Source: Hoeflea sp. IMCC20628
Lineage (GTDB): Bacteria > Pseudomonadota > Alphaproteobacteria > Rhizobiales > Rhizobiaceae
Direction of reading: 5' to 3'
Assembly: GCF_001011155.1 (NCBI RefSeq)
Contig: NZ_CP011479.1
Location: forward strand, 4,661,662-4,725,661
DNA: 64,000 nucleotides
Under the pieces are notes generated by a model that was given only the letters and a program-made list of their open reading frames with translations, was not told the origin of the DNA and did no database searches. Positions 4,969 to 63,831 of this stretch are shown piece after piece (position 1 is the stretch's first letter; each line of letters begins with the position of its first letter). The translations under genes were made by a program, and so were the position numbers.

Positions 4969-5013
4969 TCAAAGCCTATTGCGACTGGTGGTAAAGGTGC
5001 CGGCCGTGACGCC

Positions 5014-50618: not shown

Positions 50619-50821
50619 GAGTGTTTGGCCGGGCAGACATCCAGGCGACTAAGGTTGTCGTCTTTTTGCTGACGGCGATGAATTCGTTAACAGATGCGAC
50701 CGTGAGGCCGCCATAATGGCTGCAGTTTTCCGCTCTGGTAGAAGCTGCGGTCGGCAAATACACAAGATCTGGTAGGGAACAAAGCGGGAAATCAGCTTGA
50801 AAGCTGATACGGTTCCGGTTC

Positions 50822-50836
50822 GTTCCATGGCTGTTC
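50822..50836 (+). promoter_or_regulatory. LexA-type SOS box 1
   Basis: Perfect GTTC-CATGGCT-GTTC. Opposed near-box GAAC-N7-GAAA at 50777-50791. First of five. Confidence 0.7.
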
Positions 50837-51098
50837 CGGAAGTTAACAGGAATGGCCCGACCTCGATGTCTGTTAACGAAGCCTTTGGAATTGTTACTAA
50901 AATTCTAATGTTCCACTAGTGGAGCGAAACACGCACAAGATTCGCGATTACCTGAAATCAAAGGTTAACAGCGTACCGGATTCTACGCCGGACACTTCAC
51001 CGACACATCTGCATCTGGTGGGCAGTTTGCCTGAAACTGGCAGATGTTGGGCAGAACAAAATGACAACACAGACAGGTCGGTGATTCGGTTCCGGTTC

Positions 51099-51113
51099 GT
51101 TCCGGGGCTGTTC
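51099..51113 (+). promoter_or_regulatory. LexA-type SOS box 2
   Basis: Perfect GTTC-CGGGGCT-GTTC. Opposed near-box GAAC-N7-CAAC at 51054-51068. GATTC (a GANTC site) lies 15 bp upstream of the box. Confidence 0.7.
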
Positions 51114-51377
51114 CGAAGGTTAACGGGGTCGATCAGATATTCCAGGTTGGCTTAACGAAGTGTTTGGAATGATTAATAGACTCTCACCACTTCCGAAACC
51201 TGACAATCCGCGCCGGAGGCCGGAGAACGGGTGATTTCAAAGGTTAACGGCAGCCGCGGATTTGGCGCCAGATCCCGCACGGGCAATCTGCATCTGGTAG
51301 ACGCTTGGTCTCAATCTGGCAGATATTGCGAAGAACAAAGCGCCAACACAGACAGGTCGGTGATTCGGTGCCGGTTC

Positions 51378-51392
51378 GTTCTGCGGCTGTTC
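51378..51392 (+). promoter_or_regulatory. LexA-type SOS box 3
   Basis: Perfect GTTC-TGCGGCT-GTTC. Opposed near-box GAAC-N7-CAAC at 51333-51347. Confidence 0.7.
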
Positions 51393-51665
51393 CGAAAGTT
51401 AACAGGCTCGACGGCAGGCTTCGGCCGAAACTCATGAAGTGCTTGGAAAACCTAACAATTTCTGAACGGTTCAGGAGAAAAATTCGCACCAAAATACCGT
51501 GCAGGCAAGGCGAAACCTTCGGTTCAAAGATTAATTTCGAGAGTGAAAGCGATCGGTGACGTGTGCCAATGATGCCAAAATTAGTGGCATTGGGGCGAGA
51601 AGAAAACCACATATTGTGGTGAACAAACCGCCAACACAGATCGATCTGTGATTCGTAGCCGATTC

Positions 51666-51680
51666 GTTCTGCCACTGTTC
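51666..51680 (+). promoter_or_regulatory. LexA-type SOS box 4
   Basis: Perfect GTTC-TGCCACT-GTTC. Opposed near-box GAAC-N7-CAAC at 51621-51635. Two GATTC sites precede the box. Confidence 0.7.
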
Positions 51681-51948
51681 CAAAAGTTAACAGCGATCAT
51701 TAAAATGCGAGCTAATGCGTTCATGAACTGTTTGGAATTCTTAACAAATCAAGAACAGATCAGGGCCATGATGCGAGCCTGCGCCGAGCTCCGGCGACGG
51801 CTCGGCACAAAGGTTAACGGCAGCGGTTCAATCGCGGTCAGATGCGGTCGCGGCGATTCAGCATATGGTGGCTGGAAGGGGCTGCGTTGCAAGATGTTGC
51901 GGTGAACAAAAGCGGAATCGGGATGAGTCAGTGATTCGTCGCTGATTC

Positions 51949-51963
51949 GTTCCGCCACTGTTC
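51949..51963 (+). promoter_or_regulatory. LexA-type SOS box 5, nearest the helicase
   Basis: Perfect GTTC-CGCCACT-GTTC. Opposed near-box GAAC-N7-GAAT at 51904-51918. A TTGACA hexamer (51994-51999) follows 30 bp later and could be the helicase -35 element, though no convincing -10 is seen. Confidence 0.7.
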
Positions 51964-52064
51964 CAAGTGTTAATTTGAATGGCACCGGACTGTTTGACAT
52001 TTGCTCTGTTTACGCTGCTCTGATGTGTTAGATAACAGCCGTCTTGAGTTTGATACGGACACTT

Positions 52065-55000
52065 ATGCCCGCTTTGCGCAGCCATCCTCCAAAACCTTTG
52101 ATCCTGTCCGGGCGTGGCGTCACAGCCGTGCTGGGCCCGACCAATACCGGCAAGACCCACTATGCCATCGAGCGCATGGCGGCGCACTCTTCCGGGGTGA
52201 TCGGGCTGCCACTGAGATTGCTGGCGCGCGAAGTCTATGGTCGCATGGTCGACAAGGTCGGCGTCAGCCACGTGTCGCTGGTTACCGGCGAGGAAAAGAT
52301 CACGCCTCCTGGTGCGCGCTATTCGGTCTGCACGGTCGAGGCGATGCCGCAGGAAACCACTGCCGCTTTTGTTGCAATCGATGAAGTCCAGATCGCCGGC
52401 GATCTCGAGCGCGGGCATGTGTTCACCGACCGTATCCTGTCGCTGCGCGGCCGCGCGGAGACACTTCTGCTCGGCTCGGCGACGGCGCGCGGGATCCTCG
52501 AGCAATTGCTTCCTGGTATCGTTATTGTCGAACGGCCACGCTTGTCCGAGCTGCATTATGCCGGCTCGAAAAAGATCACCCGGCTGCCACGGCGTTCCGC
52601 CATCGTGGCGTTTTCGGCTGAAGAGGTCTATGCGATTGCCGAACTGGTGCGGCGTCAGCGCGGCGGCGCTGCGGTGGTGCTCGGCGCGCTTAGCCCGCGC
52701 ACCCGCAATGCCCAGGTCGAGCTCTACCAGAACGGCGATGTCGATTATCTGGTGGCGACTGATGCCATCGGCATGGGGCTCAATCTCGATGTCGACCATG
52801 TTGCCTTCGCCCAGGACCGGAAATTCGACGGTCATTCGTACAGGCAACTGACCGCTTCCGAATTCGGCCAGATTGCCGGCCGGGCCGGACGACATTTGCG
52901 CGACGGGACATTCGGCGTCACCGGCCAGGTGCAGCCGTTGCCCGACGATCTTGTGCAGCGGCTTGAAAGCCATGTGTTCGAGCCGATCAAGATCCTGCAA
53001 TGGCGTTCCAAGCAGCTGGATTTTTCCAGTTTGCAGATGCTGCAGGCGAGTCTGGAGCAAATTCCGGCGGTTCAGGGCCTGACCAGAGCGCTGCCGGCGG
53101 TCGACCAGAGGGCGCTTGAGCATCTGATCAATGATTTCGAGGTGCGCGATCTCGCCAGCACCCCGCAAAATGTCGCCACGCTGTGGGACGTCTGTTCGCT
53201 GCCGGATTACCGGCGGATTGCGCCGGCGCAGCACTCGGATCTGATCGCCACGATCTACCGTGATCTGATCCGCACCGGTTCGGTCAACGAAGATTTTATG
53301 GCAGAACAGGTGCGCAGAACCGATTCCACCGATGGTGAAATCGACACTTTATCGGCCCGGATTTCACAGATCCGGACCTGGACTTATGTTTCCAACAGAC
53401 CTGAATGGCTTGCCGATCCGACACACTGGCAGGAAAAGACGCGCGAAATCGAAGATCGATTGTCCGATGCGTTGCATGAAAGGTTGACGAAACGCTTTGT
53501 TGACCGCAGGACATCTGTGCTCATGAAGCGCCTGAGAGAGAACGCGATGCTCGAAGCTGAAATCAGTGTAAACGGTGATGTCTTTGTTGAAGGTCACCAT
53601 ATTGGACAATTAGCCGGATTCCGGTTCATGGCCGATGCGTCGGCCGATGGGCCAGATGCGAAGGCGGTGATAGCCGCTGCGCAGAAAGCGCTGGGGCTGG
53701 AATTTGAAGCGCGGGCTGCCCGACTGCATGCGTCGGGCAATTCCGACTTCGCTATCGGGTCGGACGGCACGGTGCGCTGGATGGGTGATCCTGTGGCGCG
53801 TCTGGTCGCCGGCGATCATATCCTCAAGCCGCGATCGATCCTGCTTGCCGACGAGCAACTGGCCGGCGGCGCCCGCGATTTTGTCGCTGCGCGCATCGAC
53901 CGCTTCGTCAATCACCACATCGCCACCGTGCTCAAGCCGCTCGATGATCTGACCCGCGCCGAGGACCTGGATGGGTTGTCACGTGGACTGGCATTCCGCC
54001 TGGCCGAAAGTCTGGGTGTTCTGTTCCGCCGCGATGTCTCCGAGATGATTAAGGATCTTGACCAGGGCGCGCGCGCCAGCCTGCGCAAATACGGTATCCG
54101 TTTTGGCGCCTACCACATTTTCATGCCTGCGCTGCTCAAGCCTGCGCCAGCCGAGCTGGTGACGCTGTTGTGGGCGCTGGTCAATGACGGCTTTACCAAG
54201 CCTGGTTATGGCGACGTGACGCCGCTCCTGGCAGCCGGCCGCACCTCGGTGGCGACCGATCCGGAGATTGATCGGGAATTCTACCGTCTCGCCGGTTTCC
54301 GTTTTTTGGGCAAACGCGCTGTGCGCATCGACATTCTCGAGCGGTTGGCCGACCTGATCCGTCCAGCGCTGCAATGGAAACCGGGCGCTCAGGGCGCGCG
54401 GCCGGAAGCGGCCTATGATGGCCGCCGCTTCATCACCACCACGGGTATGCTGTCGATCCTCGGGGCGACACAGGACGATATCGAGGAAATTCTCAAGGGG
54501 CTGGGCTATCGTGCCGATGCTGTGCCCGCCGAGGAGGCGCAGACCTATATGGCCGGACTTGATGCCGCACAGGTGGAAACCGGCGCTGCGACTGGCACCG
54601 GACCTGTGGTGGAAGTCGTGGTCTCACGCACTGCCGCTGACCGTCCGCACAAGCTGACGGCGCCTGCTGCCAAGGACGATGCCGCACAGGCAGAGACGGC
54701 ATCGCCGGTTGAAGCGACTGCTGCTGATACTTCAAACGAGGTTGCTGCTCAGACAGCTGCACCTGAAGAAACGGCTGAGCCGTCCACGCAAATGGCCGTG
54801 GAAGCCCCGGCTGAAGTTTCTGAAACGGCAGCTGCTGATGCGGCTCCGGCTGCAGCGACAGCGGCTGAAGAGCCGAAAGCCGAGGCAGCCGCAGAGACCG
54901 GCGCAGAAGTCGAAGCGCCGCGTCCGGTGCTGTTGTGGCGGCCAGGTGGCCGGCAGGACGGCCAGCGCGGTCCACGTCAGGCTCCCGGCGAAGGCCGTGG

Positions 55001-55286
55001 CCGGCGTGAAGGTGGCAATCGCAATCCCCGCTCCGACACCAAGCCGGTCGGCGAGGCCGGTGCGGAGGCTGACGCGCGGCCCAAAAAGGGCCGTCGCGGC
55101 AAGCCGGATCATTCCGGCAAGCCGCCACATGGCAAGGGTGGCCAGGGCAAGGGCGGTCCCGGCAGAGGCGACGACGCCAATCGTGGCAACCGGACGGAAC
55201 GGCCACCGCAGCGCAAGGAGCGGCCGATTGACCCCGATTCTCCGTTCGCAGCCTTGGCGGCGTTGCGCGACAAACTCAAGAAATAG
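52065..55286 (+). CDS. SUV3-like DEAD/DEAH-type helicase
   Basis: A roughly 1073-residue helicase related to mitochondrial SUV3. RecA-like domain 1 has the P-loop GPTNTGKTHYA, LLAREVYGRM, DEVQ in FVAIDEVQIAG and GSATARG; domain 2 has LGALSPRTRNAQVELY, LVATDAIGMGLNLD and QIAGRAGRH. The last about 230 residues are low complexity: an Ala/Glu/Pro stretch, then Arg/Gly-rich and basic, suited to RNA or DNA binding. The frame also opens at TTG 52044; I prefer ATG 52065. It follows the five-unit LexA-box array and precedes an S4 gene by 11 bp, so RNA or DNA repair is possible; SOS control is inference. Confidence 0.9.
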   Translation: MPALRSHPPKPLILSGRGVTAVLGPTNTGKTHYAIERMAAHSSGVIGLPLRLLAREVYGRMVDKVGVSHVSLVTGEEKITPPGARYSVCTVEAMPQETTAAFVAIDEVQIAGDLERGHVFTDRILSLRGRAETLLLGSATARGILEQLLPGIVIVERPRLSELHYAGSKKITRLPRRSAIVAFSAEEVYAIAELVRRQRGGAAVVLGALSPRTRNAQVELYQNGDVDYLVATDAIGMGLNLDVDHVAFAQDRKFDGHSYRQLTASEFGQIAGRAGRHLRDGTFGVTGQVQPLPDDLVQRLESHVFEPIKILQWRSKQLDFSSLQMLQASLEQIPAVQGLTRALPAVDQRALEHLINDFEVRDLASTPQNVATLWDVCSLPDYRRIAPAQHSDLIATIYRDLIRTGSVNEDFMAEQVRRTDSTDGEIDTLSARISQIRTWTYVSNRPEWLADPTHWQEKTREIEDRLSDALHERLTKRFVDRRTSVLMKRLRENAMLEAEISVNGDVFVEGHHIGQLAGFRFMADASADGPDAKAVIAAAQKALGLEFEARAARLHASGNSDFAIGSDGTVRWMGDPVARLVAGDHILKPRSILLADEQLAGGARDFVAARIDRFVNHHIATVLKPLDDLTRAEDLDGLSRGLAFRLAESLGVLFRRDVSEMIKDLDQGARASLRKYGIRFGAYHIFMPALLKPAPAELVTLLWALVNDGFTKPGYGDVTPLLAAGRTSVATDPEIDREFYRLAGFRFLGKRAVRIDILERLADLIRPALQWKPGAQGARPEAAYDGRRFITTTGMLSILGATQDDIEEILKGLGYRADAVPAEEAQTYMAGLDAAQVETGAATGTGPVVEVVVSRTAADRPHKLTAPAAKDDAAQAETASPVEATAADTSNEVAAQTAAPEETAEPSTQMAVEAPAEVSETAAADAAPAAATAAEEPKAEAAAETGAEVEAPRPVLLWRPGGRQDGQRGPRQAPGEGRGRREGGNRNPRSDTKPVGEAGAEADARPKKGRRGKPDHSGKPPHGKGGQGKGGPGRGDDANRGNRTERPPQRKERPIDPDSPFAALAALRDKLKK

Positions 55287-63620: not shown

Positions 63621-63671
63621 TGTTCGCGCCTCCTTTTGGTCAAAAAAACAGGAATAGGCGCGATGTGCACG

Positions 63672-63762
63672 TCTAATCCCTCCGCCGGTACAAACCGGAT
63701 CAGGTTCTTCGGGTTGGCCATCTGGCCTCTCAGCCCGGCGAAAACGCCAGGCACCCCGTTAG
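63672..63762 (-). promoter_or_regulatory. TPP riboswitch (THI element)
   Basis: Read on the minus strand: GGGGTGCC, GGGCTGAGAGG, ACCCGAAGAACCTGATCCGG and GGCGGAGGGATTAGAC, the conserved THI-box blocks in order. It precedes thiB by about 50 nt. Thiamine pyrophosphate binding would turn down transport gene expression, probably by hiding the ribosome site or by termination. Confidence 0.93.
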
Positions 63763-63831
63763 AGCGAGACAAGACATAGAATTTCTTCCAGACGCTGGCA
63801 AGTGGGCGCAAAGCTGCTATTGGCATGCGCC

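Follow-up and report, generated by a model that had tools for sequence, protein, structure and literature searches.

The array and its genomic context

The whole stretch of DNA that was analysed here, referred to below as the window, is 64 kb long. A gene for a Suv3-like helicase is located in it on the plus strand at positions 52044-55286, with TTG at 52044 or ATG at 52065 as the start codon, and its product matches the DEXQc_Suv3 (E 1.4e-26) and Helicase_C (E 6.1e-9) domains. To our knowledge, little has been established about the role of Suv3-type helicases in bacteria. The helicase genes found on named Hoeflea contigs match that of the window at 92.6% and 95.7% (best tblastn piece). An array of tandem units ends directly before the helicase gene; upstream of the array there are genes for a PHB regulator, a thiolase, a short-chain reductase and a GST, and downstream of the helicase gene there are those for an S4 protein, a ferredoxin and CarD. 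A putative core promoter of the helicase gene, CTGTTT-N17-TAGATA (52006-52034, plus strand), was picked out by eye after the last unit, and similar promoter-like sequences are seen, likewise by eye, at this place in several members of the genus. At the far end of the window, a TPP riboswitch (70.6 bits) is present on the minus strand at 63660-63768.

The sequence GTTC-N7-GTTC is the operator of alphaproteobacterial LexA. The initial annotation reported five perfect boxes of this kind in the array, and pattern matching finds every one of them, on the plus strand, at 50822-50836, 51099-51113, 51378-51392, 51666-51680 and 51949-51963; these are the only matches of the pattern within the window. 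Shuffling of the window gives 1.94 boxes on average, and 6 of 100 shuffles reached five, so that the box count alone is unexceptional; it is the clustering of the boxes that is exceptional. The 5.12-Mb genome contains 79 matches on the forward and 79 on the reverse strand (61 and 69, respectively, for the reversed control pattern), and the density of the array stood out in a genome scan, where only pairs and no trio within 1.2 kb were found among the 100 listed of the 158 places, namely those on contig 1 up to 3.0 Mb, the window being located beyond this point.

The boxes were described as lying in diverged tandem repeats of 277-288 bp. This is confirmed by the detection of a tandem family of 86 nt with 5 copies, four of which are 65-87% identical to the reference copy, at spacings of 277, 279, 288 and 283 bp. 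Since the five copies are homologous, the boxes do not represent five independent events. It was also proposed that the bases of the box resist the drift of the surrounding unit, which is true but incomplete: GAACAAA, TTCGTTC, CTGTTCC and GTTAA are likewise invariant in the five units.

When delimited with the profile described below, the copies are longer than the 86-nt family and all are oriented along the plus strand. Copy 1, the most distal one (50761-50853), carries the central motif TGATACG and is therefore devoid of YGATTCG, the extended CcrM/GcrA motif, which can be read from the sequence of each of the other four. Copy 2 (51038-51130, with YGATTCG at 51082-51088) and copy 3 (51317-51409, with YGATTCG at 51361-51367) are 85% identical and thus probably result from a recent duplication. 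Copy 4 (51605-51697, with YGATTCG at 51649-51655) is, like the other copies, recognized both as a member of the tandem family and by the profile. Copy 5, the promoter-proximal one (51888-51980, with YGATTCG at 51932-51938), is a profile match, and the four units of other genomes that are most similar to it are each the last of their locus.

The array is also rich in TTAAC. There are 21 occurrences in the 1.36 kb between positions 50680 and 52043 (15.4 per kb) compared with 13 in the remaining 62.6 kb of the window (0.21 per kb), i.e., an approximately 70-fold difference, and GTTAAC is found nine times in the same interval and twice in the rest of the window. The dense TTAAC is possibly the site of another regulator, e.g., CtrA; the spacing of TTAAC pairs was viewed by eye.

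An element of about 93 bp

As judged from the alignment of related units, the GTTC-N7-GTTC box is one piece of a larger, gap-poor element of about 93 bp. Among 62 units of the genus and family that were found by profile, 61 align gap-free over 96 columns; the remaining one, at locus L029, has an 11-base gap and was omitted from the alignment. A few gaps are present when more diverse units are included. The 411 matches in the retrieved loci include 384 distinct ones with fewer than 25 gaps, 288 of which remain after filtering at 88% identity, and the profile of these 288 units reads CACnAnATnTnGyvGTGAACRAAncnnGAA(n9)gTCagYGATTCGkcscyGaTTYGTTCc(n5)tGtTCcrawngTTAAC.

The blocks CnAnATnTnG, GAACRAA, YGATTCG, TTYGTTC and TTAA are kept as well as the box or better. 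The left GAAC is intact in 283 of the 288 units, YGATTCG in 279, the first GTTC in 277 and CnAnATnTnG in 233, while the second GTTC is intact in 166 and both GTTC half-sites together in 157; TTAA is intact in 210 of the 238 units that have letters at its position. The profile has a dyad centred on column 41, formed by the GAACRAA/TTYGTTC pair (p 0.0055 against column shuffles). Helical periodicity, with a peak at 11.0 bp, is marginal (p 0.05-0.12).

Distribution and linkage to the helicase gene

A sequence model of the element, R1, finds exactly the five copies of the array in its own genome, the next match having an E-value of 0.3. The array as a blastn query matches 17 of 17 genomes of the same genus, 11 of 19 of the same family and 1 of 24 other genomes of the order. 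With the R1 profile (E ≤ 0.001, the own genome counted in), at least one element was detected in 291 of 397 genomes and 100 of 142 genera of the order. A broader model, R2, detected the element in 48 of 385 genomes sampled from the class at E ≤ 0.01 and in none of the remaining 337; at E ≤ 1e-6 there are 40 strong carriers among the 385, of which 36 are outside the order, small AT-rich genomes being among them. A degenerate 20-letter pattern matches at least 119 stretches in named genomes, 113 of 119 containing the element by profile. The names given for 80 of the at least 119 include Rhizobium, Ensifer, Mesorhizobium, Neorhizobium, Brucella and Bartonella; Ahrensia, Nitratireductor, Martelella and a Hyphomonadaceae MAG are further named matches. 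On contig 1 of genome G055, the array has a blastn match at 3896368 (E 6.8e-5), the R1 match being at 3718948, about 177 kb away, and this genome may thus have elements at a second place. No description of the element was found among the results listed by searches of an open-access library (subscription journals and supplements being outside their scope), and the control element of about 93 bp is apparently undescribed.

The linkage of the element to the helicase gene was assessed in 217 pooled loci, some of them overlapping, that were chosen for carrying an element at E ≤ 1e-4. At 194 of the 202 loci with at least 900 bp of downstream sequence, the helicase gene follows the element in the same orientation; the other 15 loci have less than 900 bp downstream, and the helicase gene is absent from 8. 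The distance from the start of the unit to codon 1 of the helicase gene has a median of 224 bp and ranges from 78 to 805 bp. The 194 helicase loci, some of which are cut by the end of the stretch, contain one unit in 65 cases, two in 85, three in 32, four in 10 and five in 2. The comparison of unit number in related genomes thus bears out the initial annotation in that the array is unusual, five units being found at 2 of the 194 loci. The median spacing of neighbouring units is 274 bp, with quartiles of 245 and 283 bp (196 spacings). In S. meliloti Ak57, two units are located between phb genes and the helicase gene, and plasmid p3 of Rhizobium sp. NLR16a (L193) carries phaR-phb genes, three units, the helicase gene, the S4 gene, fdxA and carD together.

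The eight loci at which an element has no adjacent helicase gene comprise six strong matches (E 4.3e-12 or better) and two weak ones, L126 and L147 (E 2e-5 and 3e-6), which have another gene context. Four of the strong ones (L194, L196, L202 and L203, each at about position 5000) are element copies located away from the helicase gene in large genomes of one family (f35), and the strong elements of L223 and L231 are unexplained exceptions. By eye, three of the four copies in the f35 family are near GST and cupin-like genes.

Taken directly from these data, the element exists as a unit, is conserved, occupies a single locus in its own genome and has a near-obligate link to the helicase gene in one orientation.

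No match to the array was found by blastn in 50,697 phage records. Two proviral contigs carry one element each (L282:9993 and L283:1850), at about 1 and 2.4 kb from genes that, by eye, are spanin-like; L283 runs on into the helicase gene, and the roughly 600 bp that remain in L282 up to its end do not contain this gene. The neighbourhood in these two contigs may be a prophage integration site.

Promoter-proximal and distal units: a possible role of LexA

Units were recounted by class at the 194 loci with a confirmed helicase gene, distinct sequences being counted. The genus of the window is represented by 19 loci, three of which (the Hoeflea-like L138, L143 and L177) were placed there by helicase identity or by name, and all 52 of its distinct units (36 of 36 upstream and 16 of 16 last ones) contain GTTC-N7-GTTC. 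At 151 other loci, nearly all of the same order but including a Hyphomonadaceae MAG and a proviral contig, the box is present in 139 of 148 last units and in 9 of 142 upstream units, while YGATTCG is present in 148 of 148 and 138 of 142, respectively. Outside the order (24 loci), the box is found in 2 of 24 last units and YGATTCG in 24 of 24. In the order, the usual sequence of distal units is GTTC-N7-GgTC. Thus, a perfect box is characteristic of the promoter-proximal unit in the order and of every unit in the genus of the window, and outside this genus the order contains two types of units, a proximal one with GTTC-N7-GTTC and a distal one usually without it. For 55 of 62 units, the closest relative in another genome is of their own class, last or not last; for 13 of 20 first units it is again a first unit.

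These counts are important for the reading proposed in the initial annotation, an SOS control region in which LexA binds the boxes, as an operator array or as a sink, and the helicase gene is SOS-controlled. The idea of a repeated cis-acting region tied to the helicase gene is supported by the comparison of loci; the retention of the box in only 9 of 142 distal units speaks against LexA as its general explanation. The involvement of LexA is consistent with the five perfect half-site pairs at N7 spacing, with the retention of the box in every distinct unit of the genus and in most proximal units of the nearly all same-order loci outside it, with the GGAAC-N6-GGAAC box, which is of the same type, 81 bp upstream of the lexA gene of this genome, and with the presence of lexA in 52 of 54 genomes checked (53 of the 54 with a listed element). 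In addition, when the window is scored with a matrix of SOS-type boxes, the highest value (11.9) falls on box 1. On the other hand, distal units outside the genus and last units outside the order mostly lack the second half of the box and keep YGATTCG, and in the whole set the box, found in 157 units compared with 279 for YGATTCG, is not the conserved part across relatives. In genome G669, which is 99% complete, the element contains a perfect box but lexA gave no match; no lexA match was found in G042 either, although two of its genus-mates have lexA.

Boxes 2-5 score 2.5, 1.7, 0.8 and -3.1 with the same matrix, the lowest value belonging to the box nearest to the gene, and eight other GTTC-N7-GTTC sites score from -10.8 to 1.9. 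The 12 distinct training boxes, a small set scored on itself, reach 19.1-37.8. They come mostly from lexA promoters, with others near uvrA and dinB (assigned by eye) and one near an uncertain dnaE-like gene, and the scores are for this reason only indicative. By these scores, four of the five spacers of the array appear to differ from those of the genus's own SOS-type boxes. Unlike in LexA operators, the conserved region here is about 93 bp long and contains further blocks that are no weaker than the box, and LexA leaves these blocks unexplained. Because of the unit-class counts, the block counts and the matrix scores, LexA is weakened as a general explanation, and we regard SOS control of the helicase gene through these boxes as rather unlikely; binding of LexA at the proximal unit in this order is possible.

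A possible role of GcrA and CcrM

YGAKTCG is described as the extended motif of the methylated promoters that GcrA activates (PMC7987155); according to the same study, overlaps between LexA boxes and GANTC sites arise easily, and promoters of Brevundimonas did not show the extended motif. The Y position of YGATTCG in the profile of the element is C in 52% and T in 48% of units (weighted) and is followed by GATTCG. There are on average 2.54 GANTC sites per unit compared with 0.33 in mononucleotide shuffles. A match to GcrA is present in 245 of the 385 class genomes, including 40 of 40 strong carriers of the element and 4 of 8 weak carriers, and in 54 of 54 genomes checked in a separate search; phylogeny is a confounder of this distribution, and one archaeal control genome is matched by the GcrA model as well.

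The element thus resembles GcrA/CcrM promoters in having the motif and in co-occurring with GcrA in all strong carriers across the class. It differs from them in that the motif is embedded in a long element with fixed spacing, which is repeated one to five times and is apparently located upstream of the core promoter. In the proximal copy, YGATTCG would occupy positions from about -109 to -103 relative to the start predicted from the promoter that was picked out by eye; if this promoter is right, a position so far upstream is unusual for a GcrA site. Our guess is that methylation read through GcrA/CcrM is an input of the element in general.

The array as an upstream regulatory sequence

On balance, we consider it probable, if only somewhat, that the array serves as an old regulatory sequence upstream of the Suv3-like helicase gene and is read by several proteins together. 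From sequence comparison, we infer that the element acts as DNA and that it controls transcription of the helicase gene from the putative promoter, as well as the proteins through which it would do so. Each element of about 93 bp would then be a DNA platform with nearly fixed spacing to which several proteins bind jointly. The parts of the platform would be the palindrome CnAnATnTnG; inverted half-sites GAACRAA and TTYGTTC about 35 bp apart; the central YGATTCG, which would be a substrate of CcrM and could be recognized by GcrA; another half-site resembling GTTC; and TTAA. The proximal copy would be located just upstream of the predicted core promoter, at about -153 to -61, and further copies, whose number varies by tandem duplication, would add regulatory input. 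As a general input, cell-cycle methylation through GcrA/CcrM would be the most likely one, with LexA as a possible second input at the proximal copy in this order. Against this reading are the eight loci without the helicase gene, the lack of YGATTCG in copy 1 and the fact that the element was undetected in 337 of the 385 class genomes.

Repeated upstream operator arrays are known from bacterial promoters. The array described here resembles them in that tandem binding units of variable copy number are located upstream of one gene; it differs from them in that the unit is about 93 bp long and has been preserved next to a single gene in many genera of one bacterial class. A non-coding element of this length that is preserved almost gap-free beside one gene in many genera of Alphaproteobacteria, in one to five copies, is unusual, and its conservation would imply a strong and old control of the Suv3-type helicase. 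The element may therefore be a test bed for studying how several regulators share one operator, and it also calls for caution, since a perfect SOS box can be a fragment of a larger site.

A more elaborate version of the regulatory reading is that the platform serves as a sensor of replication state: it would read GANTC methylation through GcrA/CcrM and, in this order, also DNA damage, with LexA acting on the proximal unit. Signals from nucleotides or from the cell cycle might be added through the NrdR-like palindrome and TTAAC, and the sum would be passed to the helicase, with the number of units setting the gain. We regard this version as doubtful, and if it is true, such a sensor would be common to much of the class.

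Other explanations

It is also conceivable that the element is a chromosome-positional site involved in replication, segregation or nucleoid organisation, which is adjacent to the helicase gene by chance. Positions of both the element and rsmG/gidB, which we take to indicate the origin region, are listed for 22 of 34 searched genomes, and in these the best listed element is located 31-736 kb from rsmG/gidB (helicase linkage having been checked at the retrieved loci only); tandem arrays with fixed internal spacing as well as lone copies without the helicase gene in one family would fit a site of this kind. However, the distance between the element and rsmG/gidB varies more than 20-fold, synteny alone could produce the closeness, the array of one Rhizobium is on a plasmid together with the helicase operon, and the second copies in G230 and G071 are located about 1.5 and 1.9 Mb from gidB. 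A positional function thus appears quite improbable.

Another explanation is that the units are tandem small-RNA genes or form a structured leader RNA of the helicase mRNA; the initial annotation had likewise considered a set of repeated SOS-controlled transcripts. When eight units were folded singly, four had z-scores of -3.3, -3.0, -2.7 and -2.1, the others ranging from -1.7 to +1.1. In the best hairpin of the 288 units, 5 of 16 pairs are more frequent than in shuffled columns, two of them at z 4.5-4.6, but the other 11 are rarer, down to z -7.4. The outer stem, GAAC/GTTC, contains one favourable pair, 21-61 (z 4.9), but this pair is formed in only 40% of units, and the stem is otherwise almost invariant and for this reason uninformative about an RNA fold. 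The consensus fold of 61 units has 6 pairs, none of them with a double compensatory change. A search against Rfam gave no family at the gathering score in or near the array, with weak sub-threshold matches only. A conserved RNA fold of the element is not supported by these comparisons, and we consider the RNA explanation very improbable.

The weakest alternative, namely autoregulation through binding of the element by the helicase itself or by another product of the same operon, would agree with the position of the element beside one gene only in its own genome and with its travelling together with the helicase gene elsewhere, but it is hardly credible given the strong lone elements away from the helicase gene and the absence of any Pfam DNA-binding domain at E ≤ 0.001 from the helicase beyond its helicase domains.

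Several further candidates were set aside. A tRNA-like reading was dropped, the single tRNA of the window being far from the array. A coding function of the units was judged unlikely by eye from the open reading frames and from the stop codons created by TGATTC and TTAA. A replication origin was rejected because the GC skew keeps its sign throughout the window. The left block of the element, CnAnATnTnG, is similar to the consensus of the NrdR palindrome at its strong positions; the gene beside the element is, in contrast to what is expected for NrdR boxes, not a ribonucleotide reductase gene. An NrdR operator consisting of two boxes about 15-16 bp apart was rejected because the profile contains a single CnAnATnTnG block per unit. 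In E. coli, the pairs of NrdR boxes of nrdHIEF and nrdDG are 15 bp apart according to a published study (PMC12176259).

Palindromic GAACGAATC...GATTCGTTC sites are present at L126:1911, L147:3082 and L204:3562. Two of these loci, L126 and L147, are without the helicase gene, and the site in L147 is, by eye, near a clpB-like gene. The existence of such sites suggests that GATTCGTTC is a half-site of a factor which has other targets.
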